Positions 31,781 to 64,000 of a stretch of DNA of 64,000 nt are shown here, piece by piece (position 1 is the stretch's first letter; each line of letters opens with the position of its first letter). The notes under the pieces are model-generated. The model had not been told where the DNA came from. It made no database searches and saw only the letters and a list, made by a program, of their open reading frames with translations. Source of the stretch: Sipunculus nudus (Eukaryota; Annelida; Sipuncula; Golfingiida; Sipunculidae); NCBI GenBank assembly GCA_026874595.1, contig CM049317.1, positions 34,996,901 to 35,060,900 on the forward strand. Direction: 5' to 3'. A program made the position numbers and the translations under genes.

Positions 31781-31791
31781 ATGGAATGTCT

Positions 31792-33567: not shown

Positions 33568-33571
<4 letters not shown>

Positions 33572-33623: not shown

Positions 33624-33627
<4 letters not shown>

Positions 33628-35300: not shown

Positions 35301-35311
35301 AAATAAAGCTG

Positions 35312-35934: not shown

Positions 35935-36663
35935 TGCTTTGACCGTTTATGATGCACTTAAACACTAGGTGGTGGGCCTGTCTGCTGGAAAAAACCGCTG
36001 ATGTGACTAGCAGCCAACCAAATGCCAGTCAACAAACACTCGACAAGCATCAGGCTCCGCCCAGAAACCACGTATGGGGCCATTCTCTCTGAGCCTGCTC
36101 AAACTGTTGCCGGGGCGATGAGCTGTCTCTAAAAACGAAATTGTATTCTCGTAAGCCAGACAGGTGGCGCCACCTACCTTCCCGTTTTTGTAGAATGATC
36201 TATTGCCCTTTTTGAGGAGTGATTTGCCCTATTTTCCTGAAATTGTGCATATCCATAATTCTTGGACTCCTTCATTTTGTACTCAATACATATGGCGCCA
36301 TCTGCAATCGTTTTGCCGTAGCGTTCATCTGTACATGTGCTTTGGGTTAAATTTTCTCATATCTCCGGAGTGGTTCATGGTATTGGTCTTAAATTTGGCA
36401 TGTCTATCCATCTTGAAAAATTTTCTCGTAAACCAGACAGGTGGCGCCACCTTCCTTCCTGTTTCCGTAAAATAAATCCATGCTCTTTCCTCAAGAGTGA
36501 TTCACCGTATTATCCCCCATATTTGGTGAAAAATATTGTTTTTCTGAAGTTGATAGATGGAAGAAACCATGTTCGCTTACCAAGTGTCAGTATATGCTGC
36601 TGAAGATGGGGAGCCTGTTCTTAAAATGGAGGGGGGGGGGGGAGTTAATTCTCTGGGGACACT

Positions 36664-36851
36664 ATGGCACCTGCGGTGCCAAGATATATCGAGTTTGACA
36701 ATGTTTTCATACTATGTCAACACAAAAGTACAGATGAACATGACAGAAATAGATACAAACGTAAGTTTTGTTGGGGTAATATGACAAATGTTCCTCTTGC
36801 CTCTGTGTAGGTCTTTTTGACCCGACGTATCTTGTCACGAACACAGGCTAA
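36664..36851 (+). other. Weak candidate short coding segment
   Basis: ATG at 36664 opens a frame (MAPAVPRYIEFDNVFILCQH...) to a donor-like AAAC|GTAAGT at 36760/36761. A 50-bp gap ends at an acceptor-like CTCTGTGTAG (36801-36810). Joining gives RLFDPTYLVTNTG and then TAA at 36849-36851. Without splicing the frame ends at TAG 36808-36810. A different frame is open from 36817 to 37224 (135 codons, no domain). The total product would be about 45 residues, with no known family. It could be a decayed gene or chance. Confidence 0.18.
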
Positions 36852-38642: not shown

Positions 38643-41439
38643 AGTGTACCGTAACTGTGAGGGGATGAATGTGAACCTTTATACCCGAACTGTAATGCCA
38701 GAAATGTGTACCTTTAAACCCTTACAGTTAGGCCAGGAATGTGTAACTTTATACCCTTACTGTTAGGCCAGGAATGTGTACCTTTATACCCTTACTGTTA
38801 GGCCAGAAATGTGTACCTTTACACCCTTACAGTTAGGCCGGAAATGTGTACCTTTATACCCTTACTGTTAGGACAGGAATGTGTACCTTTACACCCTTAC
38901 AGTTAGGCCAGGAATGTGTACCTTTATACCCTTACTGTTAGGACAGGAATGCATACCTTTATACCCTTACAGTTAGGCCAGAAATATGTACCTTTATACA
39001 CTTACAGTTAGGCCAGGAATTTGTACCTTTATACCCTTACTGTTAGGAGAAGAATGTGTACCTTTATACCCGTACTGTTAGGCCAGGAATGTGTACCTTT
39101 ATACCATTACAGTTAGGCCAGGAATGTGTACCTTTATACCCTTACAGTTAGGCCAGAAATGTGTACCTTTATACCCTTACAGTTAGGCCAGAAATATGTA
39201 CCTTTATACCCTTACAGTTAGGCCAGAAATATGTACCTTTATACCCTTACAGTTAGGCCAGAAATATGTACCTTTATACACTTACAGTTAGGCCAGGAAT
39301 GTGTACCTTTATACCCTTACTGTTAGGCCGGGAATGTGTACCTTTATATCCTTACTGTAAGGCCAGGAATGTGTACCTTTATATCCTTACTGTTAGGCCA
39401 GGAATGTGTACCTTTATACCCTTACTGTTAGGCCAGGAATGTTTACCTTTTTACCTTTACTGTTAGGCTAGGAATGTGTAACTTTATACCCTTACAGTAA
39501 GGCCGGGAAGGTGTACCTTTTTACCCTTACAGTTAGGCCAGGAATGTGTACCTTTATACCCTTACTGTTAGGCCAGAAATGTGTACCTTTATACCCTTAC
39601 TGTTAGGCCGGGAATGTGTACCTTTATATCCTTACCGTTAGGCCAGAAATGTGTACCTTTATACCCTTACAGTTAGGCCAGGAACGTGAACCTTTATACC
39701 CTTACTGTTAGGCCAGAAATGTGTACCTTTATACCCCTACAGTTAGGCCGGGAATGTGTACCTTTATACCCTTACTGTTAGGCCGGGAATGTGTACCTTT
39801 ATATCCTTACTGTAAGGCCAGGAATGTGTACCTTTATACCCTTACTGTTAGGCCAGGAATGTGTACCTTTATACCCTTACAGTTAGGCCAGGAATGTGTA
39901 CCTTTATACCCCTACAGTTAGGCCGGGAATGTGTACCTTTATACCCTTACTGTTAGGCCGGGAATGTGTACCTTTATATCCTTACTGTAAGGCCAGGAAT
40001 GTGTACCTTTATACCCCTACAGTTAGGCCGGGAATGTGTACCTTTATACCCTTACTGTTAGGCCGGGAATGTGTACCTTTATATCCTTACTGTAAGGCCA
40101 GGAATGTGTACCTTTATACCCTTACTGTTAGGCCAGGAATGTGTACCTTTTTACCCTTACTGTTAGGCCAGGAATGTGTACCTTTATACCCTTACTGTTA
40201 GGCCAGGAATGTGTACCTTTATACCCTTACTGTTAGGCCAGGAATGTGTACCTTTATACCCTTACTGTTAGGCCAGGAATGTGTACCTTTATACCCTTAC
40301 TGTTAGGCCAGGAATGTGTACCTTTATACCCTTACTGTTAGGCCAGGAATGTGTACCTTTATACCCTTACAGTTAGGCCGGGAATGTGTACCTTTATACC
40401 CCTACAGTTAGGCCGGGAATGTGTACCTTTATACCCTTACTGTTAGGCCGGGAATGTGTACCTTTATATCCTTACTGTAAGGCCAGGAATGTGTACCTTT
40501 ATACCCTTACTGTTAGGCCAGGAATGTGTACCTTTTTACCCTTACTGTTAGGCCAGGAATGTGTACCTTTTTACCCTTACTGTTAGGCCAGGAATGTGTA
40601 CCTTTATACCCTTACTGTTAGGCCAGGAATGTGTACCTTTATACCCTTACTGTTAGGCCAGGAATGTGTACCTTTATACGCTTACTGTTAGGCCAGGAAT
40701 GTGTACCTTTATACCCTTACTGTTAGGCCAGGAATGTGTACCTTTATACCCTTACTGTTAGGCCAGGAATGTGTACCTTTATACCCGTACTGTTAGGCCA
40801 GGAATGTGTACCTTTATATCCTTACTGTAAGGCCAGGAATGTGTACCTTTATACCCTTACTGTTAGGCCAGGAATGTGTACCTTTATACCCTTACAGTTA
40901 GGCCAGAAATGTGTACCTTTATACCCTTACTGTTAGGCCAGGAATGTGTACCTTTATACCCTTACTGTTAGGCCAGGAATGTGTACCTTTATACCCTTAC
41001 AGTTAGGCCAGAAATGTGTACCTTTATACCATTAAAGTTAGGCCAGAAATATGTACCTTTATACCCTTACAGTTAGGCCAGGAATGTGTACCTTTATACC
41101 CTTAATGTTAGGCCAGGAATGTGTACCTTTATACCTTTACTGTAAGGCCAGGAATGTGTACCTTTATACCCTTACTGTTAGGCCAGGAATGTGTACCTTT
41201 ATACCCTTACTGTTAGGTCAGGAATGTGTACCTTTATATCCTTACTGTTAGGCCAGGAATGTGTACCTTTATATCCTTACTGTTAGGTCAGGAATGTGTA
41301 CCTTTATATCCTTACTGTTAGGCCAGGAATGTGTACCTTTATACCTTTACTGTAAGGCCAGGAATGTGTACCTTTATACACTTACAGTTAGGCCAGGAAT
41401 GTGTACCTTTATACCCTTAATGTTAGGCCAGGAATGTGT

Positions 41440-44400
41440 ACCTTTATACCTTTACTGTTAGGCCAGGAATGTGTACCTTTATACCCTTAATGTTAGGCCA
41501 GGAATGTGTACCTTTATACCTTTACTGTAAGGCCAGGAATGTGTACCTTTATACCCTTACTGTTAGGCCAGGAATGTGTACCTTTATACCCTTACTGTTG
41601 GTCCAGGAATGTGTACCTTTATACCTTTACTGTAAGGCCAGGAATGTGTACCTTTATACACTTACAGTTAGGCCAGGAATGTGTACCTTTATACCTTTAC
41701 TGTTAGGCCAGGAATGTGTACCTTTATACCCTAAATGTTAGGCCAGGAATGTGTACCTTATTACCCTAACTGTTAGGCCAGGAATGTGTACCTTTATATC
41801 CTTACTGTTAGGTCAGGAATGTGTACCTTTATATCCTTACTGTTAGGCCAGGAATGTGTACCTTTATATCCTTACTGTTAGGCCAGGAATGTGTACCTTT
41901 ATATCCTTACTGTAAGGCCAGGAATGTGTACCTTTATACCTTTACTGTTAGGCCAGGAATGTGTACCTTTATACCCTTAATGTTAGGCCAGGAATGTGTA
42001 GCTTATTACCCTTACAGTTTGGCCAGGAATGTGTACCTTTATATCCTTACTGTTAGGCCAGGAATGTGTACCTTCATATCCCAACTGTTAGGCCAGGAAT
42101 GTGTACCTTTAGACCCTAATAATAAGTCCAGGAATGTGTACCTTCATATGCCAACTGTAAGGCCTGGAATGTGTACCTTTATACCCTTACTGTTAGGCCA
42201 GGAATGTGTACCTTTATACCCTTACTGTTAGGCCAGGAATGTGTACCTTTATACCTTTACTGTAAGGCCAGGAATGTGTACCTTTATACACTTACAGTTA
42301 GGCCAGGAATGTGTACCTTTATACCTTTACTGTTAGGCCAGGAATGTGTACCTTTATACCCTTACTGTTAGGCCAGGAATGTGTACCTTTTTACCCTTAC
42401 TGTTAGGCCAGGAATGTGTACCTTTATACCCTTACTGTTAGGCCAGGAATGTGTACCTTTATACCTTTACTGTAAGGCCAGGAATGTGTACCTTTATACA
42501 CTTACAGTTAGGCCAGGAATGTGTACCTTTATACCTTTACTGTTAGGCCAGGAATGTGTACCTTTATACCCTTAATGTTAGGCCAGGAATGTGTACCTTA
42601 TTACCCTTACTGTTAGGCCAGGAATGTATACCTTTATATCCTTACTGTTAGGTCAGGAATGTGTACCTTTATACCCTTACAGTTAGGCCGGGAATGTGTA
42701 CCTTTATACCCTTACAGTTAGGCCGGGAAGGTGTACCTTTATACCCTTACAGTTAGGCCAGGAATGTGTACCTTTATATCCTTACTGTTAGGCCAGGAAT
42801 GTGTACCTTTATATCCTTACTGTTAGGCCAGGAATGTGTACCTTTATACCTTTACTGTTAGGCCAGGAATGTGTACCTTTATACCTTTTACTGTTAGGCC
42901 AGGAATGTGTACCTTTATATCCTTACTGTTAGGCCAGGAATGTGTACCTTTATACCTTTACTGTTAGGCCAGGAATGTGTACCTTTATACCCTTAATGTT
43001 AGGCCAGGAATGTGTACCTTTTTACCCTTACTGTTAGGCCAGGAATGTGTACCTTTATATCCTTACTGTTAGGCCAGGAATGTGTACCTTTATACCCTTA
43101 CTGTTAGCCCAGGAATGTTTACCTTTTTACCTTTACTGTTAGGCCAGGAATGTGTAACTTTATACCCTTACAGTAAGGCCGGGAAGGTGTAACTTTTTAC
43201 CCTTACAGTTTTGCCAGGAATGTGTACCTTTATACCCTTACAGTTAGGCCAGGAATGTGTACCTTTATACCCTTACAGTTAACCCAGGAATGTGTACCTT
43301 TATACCCTTACAGTTAACCCAGGAATGTGTACCTTTTTACCTTTACTGTTAGGCCAGGAATGTGTAACTTTATACCCTTACAGTAAGGCCGGGAAGGTGT
43401 AACTTTTTACCCTTACAGTTTTGCCAGGAATGTGTACCTTTATACCCTTACAGTTAGGCCAGGAATGTGTACCTTTATACCCTTACAGTTAGGACAGAAA
43501 TGTGTACCTTTATACCCTTAAAGTTAGGCCAGGAATGTGTACCTTTATACCCCTACAGTTAGGCCGGGAATGTGTACCTTTATACCCTTACAGTTAGGCC
43601 AGGAATGTGTACCTTTATACCCTTACAGTTAGGCCAGAAATGTGTACCTTTATACCCTTACTGTTAGGCCAGGAATGTGTACCTTTATACCCTTACTGTT
43701 AGGCCAGAAATGTGTACCTTTATACCCTTACAGTTAGGCCAGGAACGTGTACCTTTATACCCTTACTGTTAGGCCAGAAATGTGTACCTTTATACCCCTA
43801 CAGTTAGGCCGGGAATTTGTACCTTTATACCCTTACTGTTAGGCCGGGAATGTGTACCTTTATATCCTTACTGTTAGGCCAGAAATGTGTACCTTTATAC
43901 CCTTACTGTTAGGCCAGGAATGTGTACCTTTATACCCTTACTGTTAGGCCAGGAATGTGTACCTTTATACCCTTACTGTTAGGCCGGGAATGTGTACCTT
44001 AATATCCTTACTGTAAGGCCAGGAATGTGTACCTTTATACCCTTACTGTTAGGCCAGGAATGTGTACCTTTATACCCTTACAGTTAGGCCAGGAATGTGT
44101 ACCTTTATATCCTTACTGTAAGGCCAGGAATATGTACCTTTATACCCTTACTGTTAGGCCGGGAATGTGTACCTTTATATCCTTACTGTTAGGCCAGGAA
44201 TGTGTACCTTTATACCCTTACTGTTAGACCAGGAATGTGTACCTTTATATCCTTACTGTTAGGCCAGGAATGTGTACCTTTTTACCTTTACTGTTAGGCC
44301 AGGAATGTGTACCTTACTACCCTTACAGTTAGGCCAGGAATGTGTACCTTTATATCCTTACTGTAAGTCCAGGAATGTGTACCTTTATATCCTTACAGTT

Positions 44401-45115
44401 AGGCCAGGAATGTGTACCTTTATACCCTTAATGTTAGGCCGGGAATGTGTACCTTTATATCCTTACTGTTAGGCCAGGAATGTGTACCTTTATACCCTTA
44501 CTGTTAGGCCGGGAATGTGTACCTTTATATCCTTACTGTAAGGCCAGGAATGTGTACCTTTATACCCTTACTGTAAGGCCAGGAATGTGTACCTTTATAC
44601 CCTTACTGTTAGGCCGGGAATGTGTACCTTTATACCCTTACTGTAAGGCCAGGAATGTGTACCTTTATATCCTTACAGTTAGGCCAGGAATGTGTACCTT
44701 TATACCCTTACTGTTAGGCCAGGAATGTGTACCTTTATATCCTTACTGTTAGGCCAGGAATGTGTACCTTTATACCCTTTCAATTAGGCCAGGAATGTGT
44801 ACCTTTATATCCTTACTGTTAGGCCAGGAATGTGTACCTTTATACCCTTACAGTTAGGCCAGGAATGTGTACCTTTATATCCTTACTTTTAGGCCAGGAA
44901 TGTGTACCTTTATACCCTTACTGTTAGGCCAGGAATGTGTACCTTTATATCCTTACTGTTAGGCCAGGAATGTGTACCTTTTTACCTTTACTGTTAGGCC
45001 AGGAATGTGTACCTTTATACCCTTACACTTAGGCCAGGAATGTGTACCTTTATATCCTTACTGTAAGGCCAGGAATGTTTACCTTTATATCCTTACAGTT
45101 AGGCCAGAATGTCTA
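41440..45115. repeat. 3,675-bp higher-order repeat, copy 1
   Basis: 105 units' worth of sequence, matched by the following block at offset 3,675. It includes one 36-bp unit (42881), one 34-bp unit (45101) and the distinctive GACCCTAATAATAAGTCC and CTTCATATGCCAAC units. The 34-bp unit AGGCCAGAATGTCTACC marks its end. Confidence 0.85.
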
Positions 45116-48100
45116 CCTTTATACCCTTACTGTTAGGCCAGGAATGTGTACCTTTATACCCTTAATGTTAGGCCAGGAATGTGTACCTTTATACCTTTAC
45201 TGTAAGGCCAGGAATGTGTACCTTTATACCCTTACTGTTAGGCCAGGAATGTGTACCTTTATACCCTTACTGTTGGTCCAGGAATGTGTACCTTTATACC
45301 TTTACTGTAAGGCCAGGAATGTGTACCTTTATACACTTACAGTTAGGCCAGGAATGTGTACCTTTATACCTTTACTGTTAGGCCAGGAATGTGTACCTTT
45401 ATACCCTAAATGTTAGGCCAGGAATGTGTACCTTATTACCCTAACTGTTAGGCCAGGAATGTGTACCTTTATATCCTTACTGTTAGGTCAGGAATGTGTA
45501 CCTTTATATCCTTACTGTTAGGCCAGGAATGTGTACCTTTATATCCTTACTGTTAGGCCAGGAATGTGTACCTTTATATCCTTACTGTAAGGCCAGGAAT
45601 GTGTACCTTTATACCTTTACTGTTAGGCCAGGAATGTGTACCTTTATACCCTTAATGTTAGGCCAGGAATGTGTAGCTTATTACCCTTACAGTTTGGCCA
45701 GGAATGTGTACCTTTATATCCTTACTGTTAGGCCAGGAATGTGTACCTTCATATCCCAACTGTTAGGCCAGGAATGTGTACCTTTAGACCCTAATAATAA
45801 GTCCAGGAATGTGTACCTTCATATGCCAACTGTAAGGCCTGGAATGTGTACCTTTATACCCTTACTGTTAGGCCAGGAATGTGTACCTTTATACCCTTAC
45901 TGTTAGGCCAGGAATGTGTACCTTTATACCTTTACTGTAAGGCCAGGAATGTGTACCTTTATACACTTACAGTTAGGCCAGGAATGTGTACCTTTATACC
46001 TTTACTGTTAGGCCAGGAATGTGTACCTTTATACCCTTACTGTTAGGCCAGGAATGTGTACCTTTTTACCCTTACTGTTAGGCCAGGAATGTGTACCTTT
46101 ATACCCTTACTGTTAGGCCAGGAATGTGTACCTTTATACCTTTACTGTAAGGCCAGGAATGTGTACCTTTATACACTTACAGTTAGGCCAGGAATGTGTA
46201 CCTTTATACCTTTACTGTTAGGCCAGGAATGTGTACCTTTATACCGTTAATGTTAGGCCAGGAATGTGTACCTTATTACCCTTACTGTTAGGCCAGGAAT
46301 GTATACCTTTATATCCTTACTGTTAGGTCAGGAATGTGTACCTTTATACCCTTACAGTTAGGCCGGGAATGTGTACCTTTATACCCTTACAGTTAGGCCG
46401 GGAAGGTGTACCTTTATACCCTTACAGTTAGGCCAGGAATGTGTACCTTTATATCCTTACTGTTAGGCCAGGAATGTGTACCTTTATATCCTTACTGTTA
46501 GGCCAGGAATGTGTACCTTTATACCTTTACTGTTAGGCCAGGAATGTGTACCTTTATACCTTTTACTGTTAGGCCAGGAATGTGTACCTTTATATCCTTA
46601 CTGTTAGGCCAGGAATGTGTACCTTTATACCTTTACTGTTAGGCCAGGAATGTGTACCTTTATACCCTTAATGCTAGGCCAGGAATGTGTACCTTTTTAC
46701 CCTTACTGTTAGGCCAGGAATGTGTACCTTTATATCCTTACTGTTAGGCCAGGAATGTGTACCTTTATACCCTTACTGTTAGCCCAGGAATGTTTACCTT
46801 TTTACCTTTACTGTTAGGCCAGGAATGTGTAACTTTATACCCTTACAGTAAGGCCGGGAAGGTGTAACTTTTTACCCTTACAGTTTTGCCAGGAATGTGT
46901 ACCTTTATACCCTTACAGTTAGGCCAGGAAAATGTACCTTTATACCCTTACAGTTAACCCAGGAATGTGTACCTTTATACCCTTACAGTTAACCCAGGAA
47001 TGTGTACCTTTTTACCTTTACTGTTAGGCCAGGAATGTGTAACTTTATACCCTTACAGTAAGGCCGGGAAGGTGTAACTTTTTACCCTTACAGTTTTGCC
47101 AGGTATGTGTACCTTTATACCCTTACAGTTAGGCCAGGAATGTGTACCTTTATACCCTTACAGTTAGGACAGAAATGTGTACCTTTATACCCTTAAAGTT
47201 AGGCCAGGAATGTGTACCTTTATACCCCTACAGTTAGGCCGGGAATGTGTACCTTTATACCCTTACAGTTAGGCCAGGAATGTGTACCTTTATACCCTTA
47301 CAGTTAGGCCAGAAATGTGTACCTTTATACCCTTACTGTTAGGCCAGGAATGTGTACCTTTATACCCTTACTGTTAGGCCAGAAATGTGTACCTTTATAC
47401 CCTTACAGTTAGGCCAGGAACGTGTACCTTTATACCCTTACTGTTAGGCCAGAAATGTGTACCTTTATACCCCTACAGTTAGGCCGGGAATGTGTACCTT
47501 TATACCCTTACTGTTAGGCCGGGAATGTGTACCTTTATATCCTTACTGTTAGGCCAGAAATGTGTACCTTTATACCCTTACTGTTAGGCCAGGAATGTGT
47601 ACCTTTATACCCTTACTGTTAGGCCAGGAATGTGTACCTTTATACCCTTACTGTTAGGCCGGGAATGTGTACCTTTATATCCTTACTGTAAGGCCAGGAA
47701 TGTGTACCTTTATACCCTTACTGTTAGGCCAGGAATGTGTACCTTTATACCCTTACAGTTAGGCCAGGAATGTGTACCTTTATATCCTTACTGTAAGGCC
47801 AGGAATATGTACCTTTATACCCTTACTGTTAGGCCGGGAATGTGTACCTTTATATCCTTACTGTTAGGCCAGGAATGTGTACCTTTATACCCTTACTGTT
47901 AGGCCAGGAATGTGTACCTTTATATCCTTACTGTTAGGCCAGGAATGTGTACCTTTTTACCTTTACTGTTAGGCCAGGAATGTGTACCTTACTACCCTTA
48001 CAGTTAGGCCAGGAATGTGTACCTTTATATCCTTACTGTAAGGCCAGGAATGTGTACCTTTATATCCTTACAGTTAGGCCAGGAATGTGTACCTTTATAC

Positions 48101-48790
48101 CCTTAATGTTAGGCCGGGAATGTGTACCTTTATATCCTTACTGTTAGGCCAGGAATGTGTACCTTTATACCCTTACTGTTAGGCCGGGAATGTGTACCTT
48201 TATATCCTTACTGTAAGGCCAGGAATGTGTACCTTTATACCCTTACTGTAAGGCCAGGAATGTGTACCTTTATACCCTTACTGTTAGGCCGGGAATGTGT
48301 ACCTTTATACCCTTACTGTAAGGCCAGGAATGTGTACCTTTATATCCTTACAGTTAGGCCAGGAATGTGTACCTTTATACCCTTACTGTTAGGCCAGGAA
48401 TGTGTACCTTTATATCCTTACTGTTAGGCCAGGAATGTGTACCTTTATACCCTTTCAATTAGGCCAGGAATGTGTACCTTTATATCCTTACTGTTAGGCC
48501 AGGAATGTGTACCTTTATACCCTTACAGTTAGGCCAGGAATGTGTACCTTTATATCCTTACTTTTAGGCCAGGAATGTGTACCTTTATACCCTTACTGTT
48601 AGGCCAGGAATGTGTACCTTTATATCCTTACTGTTAGGCCAGGAATGTGTACCTTTTTACCTTTACTGTTAGGCCAGGAATGTGTACCTTTATACCCTCA
48701 CACTTAGGCCAGGAATGTGTACCTTTATATCCTTACTGTAAGGCCAGGAATGTTTACCTTTATATCCTTACAGTTAGGCCAGAATGTCTA
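45116..48790. repeat. 3,675-bp higher-order repeat, copy 2
   Basis: Tandem copy of the previous block (36-bp unit at 46556, 34-bp unit at 48776). It is followed by unrelated unit order (alternating ATACCC/ATATCC units), so the higher-order repeat exists as two copies here. Confidence 0.85.
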
Positions 48791-51700
48791 CCTTTATACC
48801 CTTACTGTTAGGCCAGGAATGTGTACCTTTATATCCTTACTGTTAGGCCAGGAATGTGTACCTTTATACCCTTACTGTTAGGCCAGGAATGTGTACCTTT
48901 ATATCCTTACTGTTAGGCCAGGAATGTGTACCTTTATACCCTTACTGTTAGGCCAGGAATGTGTACCTTTATATCCTTACTGTTAGGCCAGGAATGTGTA
49001 CCTTTATACCCTTACTGTTAGGCCAGGAATGTGTACCTTTATACACTTACTGTTAGTCCAGGAATGTGTACCTTTTTACCTTTACTGTTAGGCCAGGAAT
49101 GTGTACCTTTATACCCTGACAGTTAGGCCAGGAATGTGTACCTTTATATCCTTACTGTAAGGCCGGGAATGTGTACCTTTATATCCTTACAGTTAGGCCA
49201 GGAATGTTTACCTTTATACCCTTACTGTTAGGCCGGGAATGTGTACCTTTATATCCTTACTGTTAGGCCGGGAATGTGTACCTTTATACCCTTACTGTTA
49301 GGCCGGGAATGTGTACCTTTATATCCTTACTGTAAGGCCAGGAATGTGTACCTTTATACCCTTACTGTAAGGCCAGGAATGTGTACCTTTATACCCTTAC
49401 TGTTAGGCCGGGAATGTGTACCTTTATATCCTTACTGTTAGGCCAGGAATGTGTACCTTTATACCCTTACTGTTAGGCCGGGAATGTGTACCTTTATATC
49501 CTTACTGTTAGGCCAGGAATGTGTACCTTTATATCCTTACAGTTAGGCCAGGAATGTGTACCTTTATACCCTTACTGTTAGGCCGGGAATGTGTACCTTT
49601 ATATCCTTACTGTTAGGCCAGGAATGTGTACCTTTATACCCTTACTGTTAGGCCGGGAATGTGTACCTTTATATCCTTACTGTAAGGCCAGGAATGTGTA
49701 CCTTTATACCCTTACTGTAAGGCCAGGAATATGTACCTTTATACCCTTACAGTTAGGCCAGGAATGTGTACCTTTATACCCTTACTGTTAGGCCAGGAAT
49801 TTGTACCTTTATACCCTTACTGTTAGGCCAGGAATGTGTACCTTTATACCCTTACAGTAAGGCCAGGAATGTGTACCTTTATATCCTTACTGTAAGGCCA
49901 GGAATGTGTACCTTTATATCCTTACAGTTAGGCCAGGAATGTGTACCTTTATACCCTTACTGTTAGACCGGGAATGTGTACCTTTATATCCTTACTGTTA
50001 GGCCAGGAATGTGTACTTTTATACCCTTACTCTTAGGCCGGGAATGTGTACCTTTATATCCTTACTGTAAGGCCAGGAATGTGTACCTTTATCCCCTTAC
50101 TGTAAGGCCAGGAATGTGTACCTTTATACCCTTACTGTTAGGCCGGGAATGTGTACCTTTATATCCTTACAGTTAGGCCAGGAATGTGTACCTTTATACC
50201 CTTACTGTTAGGCCAGGAATGTGTACCTTTATATCCTTACTGTTAGGCCAGGAATGTGTACCTTTTTACCTTTACTGTTAGGCAAGGAATGTGTACTTTT
50301 ATACCCTTACAGTTAGGCCAGGAATGTGTACCTTTATATCCTTAATGTAAGGCCAGGAATGTGTACCTTTATATCCTTACAGTTAGGCCAGGAATGTGTA
50401 CCTTTATACCCTTACTGTTAGGCCGGGAATGTGTACCTTTATATCCTTACTGTTAGGCCAGGAATGTGTACCTTTATACCCTTACTGTTAGGCCGGGAAT
50501 GTGTACCTTTATATCCTTACTGTAAGGCCAGGAATGTGTACCTTTATACCCTTACTGTAAGGCCAGGAATGTGTACCTTTATACCCTTACTGTTAGGCCG
50601 GGAATGTGTACCTTTATATCCTTACTGTAAGGCCAGGAATGTGTACCTTTATACCCTAACTGTTAGGCCGGGAATGTGTACCTTTATATCCTTACTGTAA
50701 GGCCAGGAATGTGTACCTTTATACCCTTACTGTTAGGCCAGGAATGTGTACCTTTATACCCTTACAGTTAGGCCAGGAATGTGTACCTTTATATCCTTAC
50801 TGTAAGGCCAGGAATGTGTACCTTTATACCCTTACTGTTAGGCCGGGAATGTGTACCTTTATACCCTTACAGTTAGGCCAGGAATGTGTACCTTTATATC
50901 CTTACTGTTAGGCCAGGAATGTGTACCTTTATACCCTTACTGTAAGGCCAGGAATGTGTACCTTTATACCCTTACAGTTAGGCCAGGAATGTGTACCTTT
51001 ATAACCCTACTGTGAGGCCAGGAATGTGTACCTTTATATCCTTACTGTTAGGCCAGGAATGTGTACCTTTTTACCCTTACTGTTAGGCCAGGAATGTGTA
51101 CCTTTATATCCTTACTGTAAGGCCAGGAATGTGTACCTTTATACCCTTACAGTTAGGCCAGGAATGTGTACCTTTATAACCCTACTGTAAGGCCAGGAAT
51201 GTGTACCTTTATATCCTTACTGTTAGGCCAGGAATGTGTACCTTTTTACCCTTACTGTTAGGCCAGGAATGTGTACCTTTATATCCTTACTGTAAGGCCA
51301 GGAATGTGTACCTTTATACCCTTACTGTTAGGCCAGGAATGTGTACCTTTATACCCTTACTGTTAGGCCAGGAATGTGTACCTTTATACCCTTACTGTTA
51401 GGCCGGGAATGTGTACCTTTATATCCTTACTGTAAGGCCAGGAATGTGTACCTTTATACCCTTACTGTTAGGCCAGGAATGTGTACCTTTTTACCCTTAC
51501 TGTTAGGCCAGGAATGTGTACCTTTATACCCTTACTGTTAGGCCAGGAATGTGTACCTTTATACCCTTACTGTTAGGCCAGGAATGTGTACCTTTATACC
51601 CTTACTGTTAGGCCAGGAATGTGTACCTTTATACCCTTACTGTTAGGCCAGGAATGTGTACCTTTATACCCTTACTGTTAGGCCAGGAATGTGTACCTTT

Positions 51701-52779
51701 ATACCCTTACAGTTAGGCCAGGAATGTGTACCTTTATACCCCTACAGTTAGGCCGGGAATGTGTACCTTTATACCCTTACTGTTAGGCCGGGAATGTGTA
51801 CCTTTATATCCTTACTGTAAGGCCAGGAATGTGTACCTTTATACCCTTACTGTTAGGCCAGGAATGTGTACCTTTTTACCCTTACTGTTAGGCCAGGAAT
51901 GTGTACCTTTTTACCCTTACTGTTAGGCCAGGAATGTGTACCTTTATACCCTTACTGTTAGGCCAGGAATGTGTACCTTTATACCCTTACTGTTAGGCCA
52001 GGAATGTGTACCTTTATACGCTTACTGTTAGGCCAGGAATGTGTACCTTTATACCCTTACTGTTAGGCCAGGAATGTGTACCTTTATACCCTTACTGTTA
52101 GGCCAGGAATGTGTACCTTTATACCCGTACTGTTAGGCCAGGAATGTGTACCTTTATATCCTTACTGTAAGGCCAGGAATGTGTACCTTTATACCCTTAC
52201 TGTTAGGCCAGGAATGTGTACCTTTATACCCTTACAGTTAGGCCAGAAATGTGTACCTTTATACCCTTACTGTTAGGCCAGGAATGTGTACCTTTATACC
52301 CTTACTGTTAGGCCAGGAATGTGTACCTTTATACCCTTACAGTTAGGCCAGAAATGTGTACCTTTATACCATTAAAGTTAGGCCAGAAATATGTACCTTT
52401 ATACCCTTACAGTTAGGCCAGGAATGTGTACCTTTATACCCTTAATGGTAGGCCAGGAATGTGTACCTTTATACCTTTACTGTAAGGCCAGGAATGTGTA
52501 CCTTTATACCCTTACTGTTAGGCCAGGAATGTGTACCTTTATACCCTTACTGTTAGGTCAGGAATGTGTACCTTTATATCCTTACTGTTAGGCCAGGAAT
52601 GTGTACCTTTATATCCTTACTGTTAGGTCAGGAATGTGTACCTTTATATCCTTACTGTTAGGCCAGGAATGTGTACCTTTATACCTTTACTGTAAGGCCA
52701 GGAATGTGTACCTTTATACACTTACAGTTAGGCCAGGAATGTGTACCTTTATACCCTTAATGTTAGGCCAGGAATGTGT

Positions 52780-55700
52780 ACCTTTATACCTTTACTGTTA
52801 GGCCAGGAATGTGTACCTTTATACCCTTAATGTTAGGCCAGGAATGTGTACCTTTATACTTTTACTGTAAGGCCAGGAATGTGTACCTTTATACCCTTAC
52901 TGTTAGGCCAGGAATGTGTACCTTTATACCCTTACTGTTGGTCCAGGAATGTGTACCTTTATACCTTTACTGTAAGGCCAGGAATGTGTACCTTTATACA
53001 CTTACAGTTAGGCCAGGAATGTGTACCTTTATACCTTTACTGTTAGGCCAGGAATGTGTACCTTTATACCCTAAATGTTAGGCCAGGAATGTGTACCTTA
53101 TTACCCTAACTGTTAGGCCAGGAATGTGTACCTTTATATCCTTACTGTTAGGTCAGGAATGTGTACCTTTATATCCTTACTGTTAGGCCAGGAATGTGTA
53201 CCTTTATATCCTTACTGTTAGGCCAGGAATGTGTACCTTTATATCCTTACTGTAAGGCCAGGAATGTGTACCTTTATACCTTTACTGTTAGGCCAGGAAT
53301 GTGTACCTTTATACCCTTAATGTTAGGCCAGGAATGTGTAGCTTATTACCCTTACAGTTTGGCCAGGAATGTGTACCTTTATATCCTTACTGTTAGGCCA
53401 GGAATGTGTACCTTCATATCCCAACTGTTAGGCCAGGAATGTGTACCTTTATACCTTTACTGTAAGGCCAGGAATGTGTACCTTTATACACTTACAGTTA
53501 GGCCAGGAATGTGTACCTTTATACCTTTACTGTTAGGCCAGGAATGTGTACCTTTATACCCTTAATGTTAGGCCAGGAATGTGTACCTTATTACCCTTAC
53601 TGTTAGGCCAGGAATGTATACCTTTATATCCTTACTGTTAGGTCAGGAATGTGTACCTTTATACCCTTACAGTTAGGCCGGGAATGTGTAACTTTATACC
53701 CTTACAGTTAGGCCGGGAAGGTGTACCTTTATACCCTTACAGTTAGGCCAGGAATGTGTACCTTTATATCCTTACTGTTAGGCCAGGAATGTGTACCTTT
53801 ATATCCTTACTGTTAGGCCAGGAATGTGTACCTTTATACCTTTACTGTTAGGCCAGGAATGTGTACCTTTATACCTTTTACTGTTAGGCCAGGAATGTGT
53901 ACCTTTATATCCTTACTGTTAGGCCAGGAATGTGTACCTTTATACCTTTACTGTTAGGCCAGGAATGTGTACCTTTATACCCTTAATGTTAGGCCAGGAA
54001 TGTGTACCTTTTTACCCTTACTGTTAGGCCAGGAATGTGTACCTTTATATCCTTACTGTTAGGCCAGGAATGTGTACCTTTATACCCTTACTGTTAGCCC
54101 AGGAATGTTTACCTTTTTACCTTTACTGTTAGGCCAGGAATGTGTAACTTTATACCCTTACAGTAAGGCCGGGAAGGTGTAACTTTTTACCCTTACAGTT
54201 TTGCCAGGAATGTGTACCTTTATACCCTTACAGTTAGGCCAGGAATGTGTACCTTTATACCCTTACAGTTAACCCAGGAATGTGTACCTTTATACCCTTA
54301 CAGTTAACCCAGGAATGTGTACCTTTTCACCTTTACTGTTAGGCCAGGAATGTGTAACTTTATACCCTTACAGTAAGGCCGGGAAGGTGTAACTTTTTAC
54401 CCTTACAGTTTTGCCAGGAATGTGTACCTTTATACCCTTACAGTTAGCCCAGGAATGTGTACCTTTATACCCTTACAGTTAGGACAGAAATGTGTACCTT
54501 TATACCCTTAAAGTTAGGCCAGGAATGTGTACCTTTATACCCCTACAGTTAGGCCGGGAATGTGTACCTTTATACCCTTACAGTTAGGCCAGGAATGTGT
54601 ACCTTTATACCCTTACAGTTAGGCCAGAAATGTGTACCTTTATACCCTTACTGTTAGGCCAGGAATGTGTACCTTTATACCCTTACTGTTAGGCCAGAAA
54701 TGTGTACCTTTATACCCGTACAGTTAGGCCAGGAACGTGTACCTTTATACCCTTACTGTTAGGCCAGAAATGTGTACCTTTATACCCCTACAGTTAGGCC
54801 GGGAATGTGTACCTTTATACCCTTACTGTTAGGCCGGGAATGTGTACCTTTATATCCTTACTGTTAGGCCAGAAATGTGTACCTTTATACCCTTACTGTT
54901 AGGCCAGGAATGTGTACCTTTATACCCTTACTGTTAGGCCAGGAATGTGTACCTTTATACCCTTACTGTTAGGCCGGGAATGTGTACCTTTATATCCTTA
55001 CTGTAAGGCCAGGAATGTGTACCTTTATACCCTTACTGTTAGGCCAGGAATGTGTACCTTTATACCCTTACAGTTAGGCCAGGAATGTGTACCTTTATAT
55101 CCTTACTGTAAGGCCAGGAATATGTACCTTTATACCCTTACTGTTAGGCCGGGAATGTGTACCTTTATATCCTTACTGTTAGGCCAGGAATGTGTACCTT
55201 TATACCCTTACTGTTAGGCCAGGAATGTGTACCTTTATATCCTTACTGTTAGGCCAGGAATGTGTACCTTTTTACCTTTACTGTTAGGCCAGGAATGTGT
55301 ACCTTACTACTCTTACAGTTAGGCCAGGAATGTGTACCTTTATATCCTTACTGTAAGGCCAGGAATGTGTACCTTTATATCCTTACAGTTAGGCCAGGAA
55401 TGTGTACCTTTATACCCTTAATGTTAGGCCGGGAATGTGTACCTTTATATCCTTACTGTTAGGCCAGGAATGTGTACCTTTATACCCTTACTGTTAGGCC
55501 GGGAATGTGTACCTTTATATCCTTACTGTAAGGCCAGGAATGTGTACCTTTATACCCTTACTGTAAGGCCAGGAATGTGTACCTTTATACCCTTACTGTT
55601 AGGCCGGGAATGTGTACCTTTATACCCTTACTGTAAGGCCAGGAATGTGTACCTTTATATCCTTACAGTTAGGCCAGGAATGTGTACCTTTATACCCTTA

Positions 55701-56105
55701 CTGTTAGGCCAGGAATGTGTACCTTTATATCCTTACTGTTAGGCCAGGAATGTGTACCTTTATACCCTTTCAATTAGGCCAGGAATGTGTACCTTTATAT
55801 CCTTACTGTTAGGCCAGGAATGTGTACCTTTATACCCTTACAGTTAGGCCAGGAATGTGTACCTTTATATCCTTACTTTTAGGCCAGGAATGTGTACCTT
55901 TATACCCTTACTGTTAGGCCAGGAATGTGTACCTTTATATCCTTACTGTTAGGCCAGGAATGTGTACCTTTTTACCTTTACTGTTAGGCCAGGAATGTGT
56001 ACCTTTATACCCTTACACTTAGGCCAGGAATGTGTACCTTTATATCCTTACTGTAAGGCCAGGAATGTTTACCTTTATATCCTTACAGTTAGGCCAGAAT
56101 GTCTA
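52780..56105. repeat. Higher-order repeat copy 3 (shortened, 3,325 bp)
   Basis: Corresponds to copy 1 at offset 11,340 up to 53450 and 10,990 afterwards. It has lost the sequence equivalent to 42111-42460, including the TAATAATAAG unit. Confidence 0.82.
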
Positions 56106-59100
56106 CCTTTATACCCTTACTGTTAGGCCAGGAATGTGTACCTTTATACCCTTAATGTTAGGCCAGGAATGTGTACCTTTATACCTTTACTGTAAGGCCA
56201 GGAATGTGTACCTTTATACCCTTACTGTTAGGCCAGGAATGTGTACCTTTATACCCTTACTGTTGGTCCAGGAATGTGTACCTTTATACCTTTACTGTAA
56301 GGCCAGGAATGTGTACCTCTTTACACTTACAGTTAGGCCAGGAATGTGTACCTTTATACCTTTACTGTTAGGCCAGGAATGTGTACCTTTATACCCTAAA
56401 TGTTAGGCCAGGAATGTGTACCTTATTACCCTAACTGTTAGGCCAGGAATGTGTACCTTTATATCCTTACTGTTAGGTCAGGAATGTGTACCTTTATATC
56501 CTTACTGTTAGGCCAGGAATGTGTACCTTTATATCCTTACTGTTAGGCCAGGAATGTGTACCTTTATATCCTTACTGTAAGGCCAGGAATGTGTACCTTT
56601 ATACCTTTACTGTTAGGCCAGGAATGTGTACCTTTATACCCTTAATGTTAGGCCAGGAATGTGTAGCTTATTACCCTTACAGTTTGGCCAGGAATGTGTA
56701 CCTTTATATCCTTACTGTTAGGCCAGGAATGTGTACCTTCATATCCCAACTGTAAGGCCAGGAATGTGTACCTTTAGACCCTAATAATAAGTCCAGGAAT
56801 GTGTACCTTCATATGCCAACTGTAAGGCCTGGAATGTGTACCTTTATACCCTTACTGTTAGGCCAGGAATGTGTACCTTTATACCCTTACTGTTAGGCCA
56901 GGAATGTGTACCTTTATACCTTTACTGTAAGGCCAGGAATGTGTACCTTTATACACTTACAGTTAGGCCAGGAATGTGTACCTTTATACCTTTACTGTTA
57001 GGCCAGGAATGTGTACCTTTATACCCTTACTGTTAGGCCAGGAATGTGTACCTTTTTACCCTTACTGTTAGGCCAGGAATGTGTACCTTTATACCCTTAC
57101 TGTTAGGCCAGGAATGTGTACCTTTATACCTTTACTGTAAGGCCAGGAATGTGTACCTTTATACACTTACAGTTAGGCCAGGAATGTGTACCTTTATACC
57201 TTTACTGTTAGGCCAGGAATGTGTACCTTTATACCCTTAATGTTAGGCCAGGAATGTGTACCTTATTACCCTTACTGTTAGGCCAGGAATGTATACCTTT
57301 ATATCCTTACTGTTAGGTCAGGAATGTGTACCTTTATACCCTTACAGTTAGGCCGGGAATGTGTACCTTTATACCCTTACAGTTAGGCCGGGAAGGTGTA
57401 CCTTTATACCCTTACAGTTAGGCCAGGAATGTGTACCTTTATATCCTTACTGTTAGGCCAGGAATGTGTACCTTTATATCCTTACTGTTAGGCCAGGAAT
57501 GTGTACCTTTATACCTTTACTGTTAGGCCAGGAATGTGTACCTTTATACCTTTTACTGTTAGGCCAGGAATGTGTACCTTTATATCCTTACTGTTAGGCC
57601 AGGAATGTGTACCTTTATACCTTTACTGTTAGGCCAGGAATGTGTACCTTTATACCCTTAATGTTAGGCCAGGAATGTGTACCTTTTTACCCTTACTGTT
57701 AGGCCAGGAATGTGTACCTTTATATCCTTACTGTTAGGCCAGGAATGTGTACCTTTATACCCTTACTGTTAGCCCAGGAATGTTTACCTTTTTACCTTTA
57801 CTGTTAGGCCAGGAATGTGTAACTTTATACCCTTACAGTAAGGCCGGGAAGGTGTACCTTCATATCCCAACTGTAAGGCCAGGAATGTGTACCTTTAGAC
57901 CCTAATAATAAGTCCAGGAATGTGTACCTTCATATGCCAACTGTAAGGCCTGGAATGTGTACCTTTATACCCTTACTGTTAGGCCAGGAATGTGTACCTT
58001 TATACCCTTACTGTTAGGCCAGGAATGTGTACCTTTATACCTTTACTGTAAGGCCAGGAATGTGTACCTTTATACACTTACAGTTAGGCCAGGAATGTGT
58101 ACCTTTATACCCTTATTGTTAGGCCAGGAATGTGTACCTTTATACCCTTACTGTTAGGCCAGGAATGTGTACCTTTTTACCCTTACTGTTAGGCCAGGAA
58201 TGTGTACCTTTATACCCTTACTGTTAGGCCAGGAATGTGTACCTTTATACCTTTACTGTAAGGCCAGGAATGTGTACCTTTATACACTTACAGTTAGGCC
58301 AGGAATGTGTACCTTTATACCTTTACTGTTAGGCCAGGAATGTGTACCTTTATACCCTTAATGTTAGGCCAGGAATGTGTACCTTATTACCCTTACTGTT
58401 AGGCCAGGAATGTATACCTTTATATCCTTACTGTTAGGTCAGGAATGTGTACCTTTATACCCTTACAGTTAGGCCGGGAATGTGTACCTTTATACCCTTA
58501 CAGTTAGGCCGGGAAGGTGTACCTTTATACCCTTACAGTTAGGCCAGGAATGTGTACCTTTATATCCTTACTGTTAGGCCAGGAATGTGTACCTTTATAT
58601 CCTTACTGTTAGGCCAGGAATGTGTACCTTTATACCTTTACTGTTAGGCCAGGAATGTGTACCTTTATACCTTTTACTGTTAGGCCAGGAATGTGTACCT
58701 TTATATCCTTACTGTTAGGCCAGGAATGTGTACCTTTATACCTTTACTGTTAGGCCAGGAATGTGTACCTTTATACCCTTAATGTTAGGCCAGGAATGTG
58801 TACCTTTTTACCCTTACTGTTAGGCCAGGAATGTGTACCTTTATATCCTTACTGTTAGGCCAGGAATGTGTACCTTTATACCCTTACTGTTAGCCCAGGA
58901 ATGTTTACCTTTTTACCTTTACTGTTAGGCCAGGAATGTGTAACTTTATACCCTTACAGTAAGGCCGGGAAGGTGTAACTTTTTACCCTTACAGTTTTGC
59001 CAGGAATGTGTACCTTTATACCCTTACAGTTAGGCCAGGAATGTGTACCTTTATACCCTTACAGTTAACCCAGGAATGTGTACCTTTATACCCTTACAGT

Positions 59101-60900
59101 TAACCCAGGAATGTGTACCTTTTTACCTTTACTGTTAGGCCAGGAATGTGTAACTTTATACCCTTACAGTAAGGCCGGGAAGGTGTAACTTTTTACCCTT
59201 ACAGTTTTGCCAGGTATGTGTACCTTTATACCCTTACAGTTAGGCCAGGAATGTGTACCTTTATACCCTTACAGTTAGGACAGAAATGTGTACCTTTATA
59301 CCCTTAAAGTTAGGCCAGGAATGTGTACCTTTATACCCCTACAGTTAGGCCGGGAATGTGTACCTTTATACCCTTACAGTTAGGCCAGGAATGTGTACCT
59401 TTATACCCTTACAGTTAGGCCAGAAATGTGTACCTTTATACCCTTACTGTTAGGCCAGGAATGTGTACCTTTATACCCTTACTGTTAGGCCAGAAATGTG
59501 TACCTTTATACCCTTACAGTTAGGCCAGGAACGTGTACCTTTATACCCTTACTGTTAGGCCAGAAATGTGTACCTTTATACCCCTACAGTTAGGCCGGGA
59601 ATGTGTACCTTTATACCCTTACTGTTAGGCCGGGAATGTGTACCTTTATATCCTTACTGTTAGGCCAGAAATGTGTACCTTTATACCCTTACTGTTAGGC
59701 CAGGAATGTGTACCTTTATACCCTTACTGTTAGGCCAGGAATGTGTACCTTTATACCCTTACTGTTAGGCCGGGAATGTGTACCTTTATATCCTTACTGT
59801 AAGGCCAGGAATGTGTACCTTTATACCCTTACTGTTAGGCCAGGAATGTGTACCTTTATACCCTTACAGTTAGGCCAGGAATGTGTACCTTTATATCCTT
59901 ACTGTAAGGCCAGGAATATGTACCTTTATACCCTTACTGTTAGGCCGGGAATGTGTACCTTTATATCCTTACTGTTAGGCCAGGAATGTGTACCTTTATA
60001 CCCTTACTGTTAGGCCAGGAATGTGTACCTTTATATCCTTTCTGTTAGGCCAGGAATGTGTACCTTTTTACCTTTACTGTTAGGCCAGGAATGTGTACCT
60101 TACTACCCTTACAGTTAGGCCAGGAATGTGTACCTTTATATCCTTACTGTAAGGCCAGGAATGTGTACCTTTATATCCTTACAGTTAGGCCAGGAATGTG
60201 TACCTTTATACCCTTAATGTTAGGCCGGGAATGTGTACCTTTATATCCTTACTGTTAGGCCAGGAATGTGTACCTTTATACCCTTACTGTTAGGCCAGGA
60301 ATGTGTACCTTTATATCCTTACTGTAAGGCCAGGAATGTGTACCTTTATACCCTTACTGTAAGGCCAGGAATGTGTACCTTTATACCCTTACTGTTAGGC
60401 CGGGAATGTGTACCTTTATACCCTTACTGTAAGGCCAGGAATGTGTACCTTTATATCCTTACAGTTAGGCCAGGAATGTGTACCTTTATACCCTTACTGT
60501 TAGGCCAGGAATGTGTACCTTTATATCCTTACTGTTAGGCCAGGAATGTGTACCTTTATACCCTTTCAATTAGGCCAGGAATGTGTACCTTTATATCCTT
60601 ACTGTTAGGCCAGGAATGTGTACCTTTATACCCTTACAGTTAGGCCAGGAATGTGTACCTTTATATCCTTACTTTTAGGCCAGGAATGTGTACCTTTATA
60701 CCCTTACTGTTAGGCCAGGAATGTGTACCTTTATATCCTTACTGTTAGGCCAGGAATGTGTACCTTTTTACCTTTACTGTTAGGCCAGGAATGTGTACCT
60801 TTATACCCTTACACTTAGGCCAGGAATGTGTACCTTTATATCCTTACTGTAAGGCCAGGAATGTTTACCTTTATATCCTTACAGTTAGGCCAGAATGTCT
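56106..60900. repeat. Higher-order repeat copy 4 (lengthened, 4,796 bp)
   Basis: Corresponds to copy 2 plus an internal tandem duplication of 1,121 bp (56731-57851 repeated as 57852-58972). This explains the two 36-bp units at 57546 and 58667. Confidence 0.85.
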
Positions 60901-61466
60901 ACCTTTATACCCTTACTGTTAGGCCAGGAATGTGTACCTTTATATCCTTACTGTTAGGCCAGGAATGTGTACCTTTATACCCTTACTGTTAGGCCAGGAA
61001 TGTGTACCTTTATATCCTTACTGTTAGGCCAGGAATGTGTACCTTTATACCCTTACTGTTAGGCCAGGAATGTGTACCTTTATATCCTTACTGTTAGGCC
61101 AGGAATGTGTACCTTTATACCCTTACTGTTAGGCCAGGAATGTGTACCTTTATACACTTACTGTTAGTCCAGGAATGTGTACCTTTTTACCTTTACTGTT
61201 AGGCCAGGAATGTGTACCTTTATACCCTGACAGTTAGGCCAGGAATGTGTACCTTTATATCCTTACTGTAAGGCCGGGAATGTGTACCTTTATATCCTTA
61301 CAGTTAGGCCAGGAATGTTTACCTTTATATCCTTACTGTAAGGCCGGGAATGTGTACCTTTATACCCTTACTGTTAGGCCGGGAATGTGTACCTTTATAT
61401 CCTTACTGTAAGGCCGGGAATGTGTACCTTTATACCCTTACTGTTAGGCCGGGAATGTGTACCTTT

Positions 61467-62990
61467 ATATCCGTACTGTTAGGCCAGGAATGTGTACCTT
61501 TATACCCTTACTGTTAGGCCGGGAATGTGTACCTTTATACCCTTACTGTTAGGCCAGGAATGTGTACCTTTATACCCTTACTGTTAGGCCAGGAATGTTT
61601 ACCTTTATACCCTTACTGTTAGGCCGGGAATGTGTACCTTTATATCCGTACTGTTAGGCCAGGAATGTGTACCTTTATACCCTTACAGTTAGGCCGGGAA
61701 TGTGTACCTTTATACCCTTACTGTTAGTCCAGGAATGTGTACCTTTATACCCTTACTGTTAGGCCAGGAATGTTTACCTTTATACCCTTACAGTTAGGCC
61801 GGGAATGTGTACCTTTATATCCGTACTGTTAGGCCAGGAATGTGTACCTTTATACCCTTACTGTTAGGCCGGGAATGTGTACCTTTATACCCTTACTGTT
61901 AGTCCAGGAATGTGTACCTTTATACCCTTACTGTTAGGCCAGGAATGTGTACCTTTATACCCTTACTGTTAGGCCGGGAATGTGTACCTTTATATCCTTA
62001 CTGTAAGGCCAGGAATGTGTACCTTTATCCCCTTACTGTTAGGCCAGGAATGTGTACCTTTATATCCTTACTGTTAGGCCAGGAATGTGTACCTTTATAT
62101 CCTTACTGTAAGGCCGGGAATGTGTACCTTTATACCCTTACTGTTAGGCCGGGAATGTGTACCTTTATATCCTTACTGTTAGGCCAGGAATGTGTACCTT
62201 TATCCCCTTACTGTTAGGCCAGGAATGTGTACCTTTATACCCTTACTGTTAGGCCGGGAATGTGTACCTTTATATCCTTACTGTAAGGCCAGGAATGTGT
62301 ACCTTTATCCCCTTACTGTTAGGCCAGGAATGTGTACCTTTATCCCCTTACTGTTAGGCCAGGAATGTGTACCTTTATACCCTTACTGTTAGTCCAGGAA
62401 TGTGTACCTTTATACCCTTACTGTTAGGCCAGGAATGTGTACCTTTATACCCTTACTGTTAGGCCGGGAATGTGTACCTTTATATCCTTACTGTAAGGCC
62501 AGGAATGTGTACCTTTATACCCTTACTGTTAGGCCAGGAATGTGTACCTTTATATCCTTACTGTAAGGCCGGGAATGTGTACCTTTATACCCTTACTGTT
62601 AGGCCGGGAATGTGTACCTTTATATCCGTACTGTTAGGCCAGGAATGTGTACCTTTATACCCTTACTGTTAGGCCGGGAATGTGTACCTTTATACCCTTA
62701 CTGTTAGGCCAGGAATGTGTACCTTTATACCCTTACTGTTAGGCCAGGAATGTTTACCTTTATACCCTTACTGTTAGGCCGGGAATGTGTACCTTTATAT
62801 CCGTACTGTTAGGCCAGGAATGTGTACCTTTATACCCTTACAGTTAGGCCGGGAATGTGTACCTTTATACCCTTACTGTTAGTCCAGGAATGTGTACCTT
62901 TATACCCTTACTGTTAGGCCAGGAATGTTTACCTTTATACCCTTACAGTTAGGCCGGGAATGTGTACCTTTATATCCGTACTGTTAGGCC
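61467..62990. repeat. 175-bp (5-unit) sub-repeat inside superunit 2
   Basis: The unit variant ATATCCGTAC occurs at 61467, 61642 and 61817, and again at 62622, 62797 and 62972. Spacing is exactly 175 bp within each group, and the groups are 1,155 bp apart. I did not see this variant in superunit 1, so it is a local, recent expansion. Confidence 0.8.
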
Positions 62991-64000
62991 AGGAATGTGT
63001 ACCTTTATACCCTTACTGTTAGGCCGGGAATGTGTACCTTTATACCCTTACTGTTAGTCCAGGAATGTGTACCTTTATACCCTTACTGTTAGGCCAGGAA
63101 TGTGTACCTTTATACCCTTACTGTTAGGCCGGGAATGTGTACCTTTATATCCTTACTGTAAGGCCAGGAATGTGTACCTTTATCCCCTTACTGTAAGGCC
63201 AGGAATGTGTACCTTTATACCCTTACTGTTAGGCCGGGAATGTGTACCTTTATATCCTTACTGTTAGGCCAGGAATGTGTACCTTTATACCCTTACTGTT
63301 AGGCCGGGAATGTGTACCTTTATACCCTTACAGTTAGGCCAGGAATGTGTACCTTTATATCCTTAATGTAAGGCCAGGAATGTGTACCTTTATATCCTTA
63401 CAGTTAGGCCAGGAATGTGTACCTTTATACCCTTACTGTTAGGCCGGGAATGTGTACCTTTATATCCTTACTGTTAGGCCGGGAATGTGTACCTTTATAC
63501 CCTTACTGTTAGGCCGGGAATGTGTACCTTTTTATCCTTACTGTAAGGCCAGGAATGTGTACCTTTATACCCTTACTGTAAGGCCAGGAATGTGTACCTT
63601 TATACCCTTACTGTTAGGCCGGGAATGTGTACCTTTATATCCTTACTGTAAGGCCAGGAATGTGTACCTTTATACTCTAACTGTTAGGCCGGGAATGTGT
63701 ACCTTTATATCCTTACTGTAAGGCCAGGAATGTGTACCTTTATACCCTTACTGTTAGGCCAGGAATGTGTACCTTTATACCCTTACAGTTAGGCCAGGAA
63801 TGTGTACCTTTATATCCTTACTGTAAGGCCAGGAATGTGTACCTTTATACCCTTACTGTTAGGCCGGGAATGTGTACCTTTATACCCTTACAGTTAGGCC
63901 AGGAATGTGTACCTTTATATCCTTACTGTTAGGCCAGGAATGTGTACCTTTATACCCTTACTGTAAGGCCAGGAATGTGTACCTTTATACCCTTACAGTT

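Follow-up and report, generated by a model that had tools for sequence, protein, structure and literature searches.

A ~44.8-kb array of 35-bp repeats in a phosphodiesterase gene intron of Sipunculus nudus and its probable origin from a small transposon-like element

A single intron of a PDE5/11-type cyclic-nucleotide phosphodiesterase gene in Sipunculus nudus holds a head-to-tail array of 35-bp units. The array adjoins the degraded core of a dispersed element, of which un-expanded copies exist elsewhere in the genome, and most of it lies in blocks that recur, nearly identical, inside the array. We conclude, with a probability of roughly 0.8, that a small non-autonomous transposon-like element in the intron gave rise to the array from its 3' subterminal repeat, followed by enlargement through block duplication.

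Extent of the array and its position in the host gene

The window, i.e., the whole stretch of 64,000 nucleotides that was analyzed, corresponds to C12:34996901-35060900 in an assembly of 1.43 Gb and 153 contigs, in which contig C12 comprises 78.55 Mb. Positions termed "extended" carry the window numbering past its edge, in a joined 92.1-kb stretch that includes adjacent contig sequence. The main features are as follows:

9361..10185, + strand: PDE5/11-type cyclic-nucleotide phosphodiesterase, coding exon in which the first GAF domain begins (phmmer)
10186..64000, on to extended 89059, + strand: intron of the PDE5/11-type gene, 78,874 bp (splice sites and reading frame)
38667..64000, ending at extended 83478 (C12:35080378), + strand: 35-bp minisatellite array, consensus GAATGTGTACCTTTATACCCTTACTGTTAGGCCAG

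Within the window, TRF reported the array at 38667-64000 with a period of 35, 723.8 copies, 92% matches, and 0% indels. The 723 units counted there were of 112 kinds, and 694 of them matched the consensus at at least 31 of 35 positions (lowest, 24). The preliminary description had given ~720 units, an abrupt left start, and an array of at least 25 kb that runs off the window edge. All of this was confirmed, and continuation of the array to C12:35080378 nearly doubled its size. Its full extent in the joined stretch was 38667-83478 (C12:35035567-35080378; 44,812 bp and 1,280.4 copies by TRF), after which non-array sequence resumed. The start had been placed at 38643, a position that stands if a degenerate half-unit is taken in, and that does not agree with the TRF start at 38667.

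Across the whole array, 1,238 of 1,280 units matched the consensus at at least 31 of 35 positions (0 to 4 differences), again with a lowest value of 24. No N was present anywhere in these units, and 14 single-base phase shifts were counted. The edges were slightly more diverged, with means of 32.5 (first ten units) and 32.7 (last twelve) versus 33.3 of 35 in the interior, and the longest perfectly periodic tract measured 219 bp. With head-to-tail units of 35 bp, 1,280 copies, and 92% matches, the array belongs to the minisatellites (VNTRs), whose units measure ~10 to 100 bp. In this one assembly, the flank was matched at 100% once, and no second haplotype was seen.

The frame at 9295-10200 matched PDE5 chains over residues 194-295 (phmmer, E=2.5e-18), and no Pfam family was obtained for it at E<=0.001. 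Its first ATG lies at 9361, and the exon ends with GCTAATAAG followed by GTAAGT (codons GCT AAT AAG, then GTAAGT), which places the splice donor GT at 10186. The next exon (C12:35085960-35086118), 5.6 kb beyond the array end, is preceded by TTTTGTAG, and the boundary reads TTTTTTTTGTAG followed by GAT CCA CGA. The reading frame carries on from the first of these exons into the second, with canonical splice sites on both sides. A human PDE11A fragment served as tblastn query; its residues 21-74 aligned at extended 89060-89221 (56% identity, E=5e-15), and residues 1-18 aligned at 10126-10179, the end of frame 9295-10200, with an E of 0.31 that is weak alone. No PDE catalytic-domain motif was found in the 92-kb stretch. 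Since the exons on both sides are consecutive in one frame, the array lies within one intron, of whose 78.9 kb it occupies 57%. The earlier suggestion of an intronic block of a PDE11-like gene was thus borne out. Most likely the array has no dedicated function, and its most probable consequence is a greatly lengthened intron.

Other repeats were also observed. The same intron contains a separate 33-bp minisatellite of 7.2 copies (C12:35085148-35085382; extended 88248-88482), ~580 bp before the next PDE exon. At 20404-20960, the window holds two copies of a 279-bp unit with the palindrome GGTGGCGCCACC, and positions 1-887 of locus L029 carry a 277-bp tandem repeat with GGTGGCG, possibly of one family with the 279-bp unit.

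The dispersed element, related arrays, and un-expanded copies

A 141-bp stretch of the array, used as query in a genome search, gave 369 matches, part of which were listed. Among the matches listed, identity of at least 86% occurred only within this C12 array, and nine other places on seven contigs had 71-82% identity. The search was weak on repeats (39 of 62 candidates scored, with the query's own place absent from the list), so that a single locus is not proven by its result. A chromosome-wide satellite, which had been under consideration, is not supported by these identities, within the limits of a search weak on repeats. Distinct arrays with 35-bp units were found at C6:8.73M, C3:20.17M, C14:28.38M, C2:62.93M, C10:32.96M, C8:46.80M, and C8:32.01M, and arrays with units of 73 bp and 72 bp at C4:53.63M and C8:76.786-76.832M, respectively. 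Eight other 35-bp units (from these seven arrays and C6:40.57M) aligned to the C12 unit without gaps at 24-30 of 35 positions; when one unit was shuffled 2,000 times, the best score was 22 of 35. This comparison covered the 35-bp units only. A comparison of downstream flanks yielded four short matches, all between other loci; the strands of L018 and L020 were assigned in it by a narrow margin.

The array with the 72-bp unit (L017-L018, C8:76785864-76831650) is a second giant one, of ~45.8 kb as judged from its two ends and the matches between them. By eye, its unit resembles the 5' region of the element described below. L015 (C2:62.93M) also holds tandem repeats around a 21-bp palindromic unit, TAGTAATTCGTGCGCACGAAT, at 6558-6710 and 7639-7728.

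The upstream flanks of several arrays have a degraded sequence in common, which in the window gives rise to two features:

38120..38650, + strand: degraded core of a transposon-like element, ~1 kb long, dispersed and non-coding; left end approximate, 3' end running into the array
38643..38701, + strand: degenerate half-unit followed by the first unit, where the element's 3' subterminal region meets the array

A core model (HMM) with L015 as its seed drew only on loci that the array unit had retrieved; the present locus and those retrieved with its flank were excluded. It matched 38363-38567 (E=1.5e-15) and 38208-38284 (E=4.7e-5), with no other match at E<=1 in the 38.7 kb of left flank or the 8.6 kb of right flank. 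The window's flank also aligned to a copy at C15:33.26M from about 38120 to the first array units. The AT-rich sequence beside the array, previously taken as unique, is a degraded copy of the dispersed element.

Six further loci were found using the window's flank, among them L027 with its own 35-bp array and L024 with a short 52-bp repeat. For the reverse test, a model was built from four of these copies that were counted as un-expanded (L023-L026). It matched six of ten array loci (L013, L014, L015, L016, L019, and L020), equal to six of nine arrays since L017 and L018 are the two ends of one array, and the nearest match in each lay 13-103 bp from the array edge. There was no match in L012, L017, L018, and L021, and none in shuffled loci at E<=0.1. 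At this locus the same model, its first 136 positions unmatched, hit 38224-38648 with E=3e-39, a figure favored by selection because the copies had been found with this very flank; the unbiased figure is therefore the E of 1.5e-15 from the array-loci model. By the L023-L026 model, three of the nine other arrays (C6:8.73M, C8:32.01M, and C8:76.79M) were without a core, and the one at C6:8.73M was matched at 7.9e-14 by one other model.

Patchy and at 63-77% identity, the core homology is, by sequence, old. The longest stop-free stretch in seven element copies examined was 82 aa, and these copies are therefore non-coding. Neither terminal repeats nor a target-site duplication could be delimited; similar end sequences were visible by eye in a few copies. 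The right end of the array showed nothing recognizable as an element end. Arrays adjoin the core on one side. At L014 (C14) the array adjoins the core's 5' end, and at the other loci it is found on the 3' side (e.g., C12, L015, and L019). Among the copies examined, no single one had long arrays on both sides of the core.

Segments resembling the unit exceeded 20 shuffles each in all five un-expanded copies (L023, L024, L025, L026, and L028). They spanned 0.91 to 4.4 unit lengths, the weakest being that of L025 (36 versus 24). In the copy at C15:33.26M, the segment AGAAAGTTGTACCTTTATACACTAATAGTTATGGCCGGAA corresponds to the array unit. In the window, the first array unit matches the consensus at 30 of 35 positions, and the junction aligned with the unit-like segment of L023. 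Two marks of a transposon-derived repeat were thus found: the array adjoins a dispersed element, both here (E=1.5e-15) and at six of nine other arrays, and the un-expanded copies carry the monomer (5 of 5).

The unit in un-expanded copies sits among short repeated motifs of the pattern ~GGYAGGAA, which was chosen after reading the sequences. Motif spacings in L023 were 17, 35, 21, and 17; an exact spacing of 35 bp was present in three of the five un-expanded copies (L023, L025, and L028) and absent in L024 and L026. Spacings of 21, 17, 35, 35, and 35 in L015 run into its array. Those of L016 cycle through 35, 21, and 17 twice before becoming irregular, and 35+21+17 equals its 73-bp unit. We read these spacings as setting the unit length, presumably via slippage or unequal exchange between motif copies.

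Functions of the unit itself were considered separately and rejected. A core, CCTGCCCTAACnGTTAGGGCAGG, that suggested a hairpin or palindrome was seen by eye in relatives, and the C12 dimer folded no better than shuffles; of nine units folded, only that of L020 stood out (-14.3 versus -7.2, sd 3.4). Protein coding was dismissed as well, the forward frames of 92-139 aa at 39887-63721 (those of at least 90 aa were listed) resulting from 3 x 35 = 105 and TAG-losing variants.

Growth of the array and alternative readings

Much of the array proved to be internally duplicated, as illustrated by the following blocks:

41452..45158, + strand: example of block duplication, near-identical to 45127-48833 at a distance of 3675 bp (105 units)
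46112..51334, + strand: largest duplicated block, 5,223 bp, near-identical to extended 73516-78738 at a distance of 27,404 bp

Exact shared 100-mers were joined over gaps of up to 150 bp. By this measure, blocks of at least 500 bp with a further copy inside the array account for 87% of its length, and blocks of at least 1 kb for 83%. Duplicated blocks measured 0.5-5.2 kb, were 99.4-100% identical, and formed pairs at many different distances. The first pair above was 99.73% identical over 3707 bp, with 10 scattered differing positions, and the largest 99.77% identical, with 12; in the four block pairs inspected, copies differed at 9-14 positions scattered along the block. Recent growth of the array appears to have occurred largely by block duplication.

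According to the origin that we propose, a small non-autonomous element, ~1 kb long, non-coding, and resembling a DNA transposon, would have inserted into the intron of the PDE5/11-type gene. As in its relatives, several ~GGYAGGAA copies would have been present in its 3' subterminal region, spaced by, for example, 17, 35, and 21 bp. Where two of these copies stood 35 bp apart, slippage or unequal exchange between them may then have duplicated the interval and fixed the unit length, with unit-scale slippage producing an array. Later block duplications of multi-kilobase size (0.5-5.2 kb, 99.4-100% identical) would have brought it to 44.8 kb. A wider reading, which we hold tentatively and rate somewhat below even odds, is that the element family acts as a minisatellite seed. 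Its spaced motifs (17, 35, and 21 bp) would set a unit length of 35, or of 73 = 35+21+17, in arrays born separately at many loci and on whichever side of the element. If this were true, one genome would contain replicate array births ranging from ~1.5 units (C6:40.09M) to ~1,280 (C12). Such a series would show how minisatellites begin and how some of them, inside genes, reach satellite scale through duplication of kilobase blocks.

Alternatively, an independent 35-bp satellite may have come first and picked up the element or received it by insertion into the repeat, as in capture of the miDNA4 type. The compared units are all exactly 35 bp long despite differences of 14-31% from the C12 unit, which a shared ancestral array would also fit, and three of nine other arrays have no core beside them. 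However, un-expanded copies hold the unit within a longer motif pattern, repetition of the whole pattern makes up a 73-bp array, and the C14 array adjoins the opposite (5') end of the core. Both the motif pattern and the side on which the C14 array lies are better explained by repeated birth from the element than by capture, which we consider unlikely. The length of the array might also be due in part to an assembler that put near-identical multi-kilobase blocks in tandem, blocks of up to 5.2 kb at 99.4-100% identity being hard for any assembler. We judge such an expansion very unlikely in an array that is free of N and whose two boundaries, together with both neighboring exons, lie on one 78.55-Mb contig. 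Moreover, its block copies differ at scattered positions (9-14 in four pairs), the distances between paired blocks vary widely, and a second array of the family, at C8:76.786-76.832M, is of similar size.

A selected role has also to be weighed, in which the units would be protein-binding sites acting on the PDE gene or would accumulate as many transposase-binding sites. Transposase-binding sites often lie in subterminal regions of transposons, and the amplified unit derives from such a region. Excerpts of published accounts argue for subterminal sites of this sort in Galileo and Tetris (PMC4079207) and relate that gene expression can vary with arrays of this kind, as for the intronic VNTR of human CACNA1C (PMC13131567). 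Against a selected role, the fold of the C12 unit dimer was not above shuffles (-2.9 versus a shuffle mean of -5.3), no RNA family matched within the window at Rfam gathering scores, and the array frames are explained by the period; we regard it as highly improbable. Satellite-scale length would fit a centromeric, pericentromeric, or subtelomeric satellite, and a unit search weak on repeats may have missed copies elsewhere. Yet the array lies at 35.04-35.08 Mb of a 78.55-Mb contig, in one intron with canonical splice sites, and among the matches listed its relatives on seven other contigs are divergent (71-82%). Since it is inside one intron and mid-contig, the centromeric role raised in the preliminary description is unsupported and the subtelomeric one was not borne out. 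We consider a satellite of any of these kinds extremely unlikely.

Comparison with known systems

Transposon-born tandem repeats are well documented and large intronic arrays are on record, so that the present case is of a known kind. Excerpts of the account of Tetris/TIR-220 in Drosophila virilis (PMC4079207) describe a foldback-type element with terminal inverted repeats, target duplications of 8-10 bp, and a unit of ~220 bp in up to 66 copies in beta-heterochromatin. As far as these excerpts extend, Tetris and the element studied here are alike in being non-autonomous, in tandem repeats of the end region that expanded within the element, and in copies without transposase; in both, the repeat shares a stretch with the element end. 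Unlike the repeats described for Tetris, those reported here have a unit of 35 bp, ~1,280 copies, and a position in a gene intron. In Xenopus, excerpts on Xmix MITE/Xstir and miDNA4 (PMC9659126, PMC12628747) describe tandem repeats that stem from a MITE or are carried by one, and the model given for miDNA4 attributes array growth to short direct repeats on both sides of the monomer. These direct repeats are much like the spaced motifs of the S. nudus element, a likeness drawn by description only and from another host.

Two systems of Crassostrea gigas are close in other respects. The Cg_HINE Helentrons are portrayed in excerpts of their account (PMC7492417) with monomers averaging 140-180 bp in a central array, the longest of 29 monomers. 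They have in common with the present family many dispersed arrays on non-autonomous elements and an element flank adjoining the array. Unlike these central arrays, those of S. nudus are subterminal, on either side of the core. CgiSat01, according to excerpts (PMC8268682), is a transposon-associated satellite that has, as here, one array of similar length (232 monomers, ~40 kb). In contrast to the array in the PDE intron, however, that long array is standalone with an assembly gap, and element-associated arrays reach at most 89 monomers. TRACT, the human CACNA1C intronic VNTR (PMC13131567), is likewise intronic, with a unit of 30 bp and a size of 3-30+ kb; population data exist for TRACT, and the abstract of that report does not mention a transposon origin.

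In a keyword search of open-licence papers, the 35-bp repeat was not named in titles or abstract openings, which is no proof of its absence from print. The S. nudus case is notable for its copy number, for its place in an intron, and because likely starting states have survived alongside finished arrays. The beginnings of a minisatellite, and the reason for its unit length, can seldom be observed, since the starting state is lost. The un-expanded copies preserve a likely starting state, which allows comparison, between loci of a single genome, of how such arrays arise, acquire their unit length, and grow. With ~45 kb of array in one intron of a signaling gene, S. nudus also provides a case for asking about effects on transcription or splicing.
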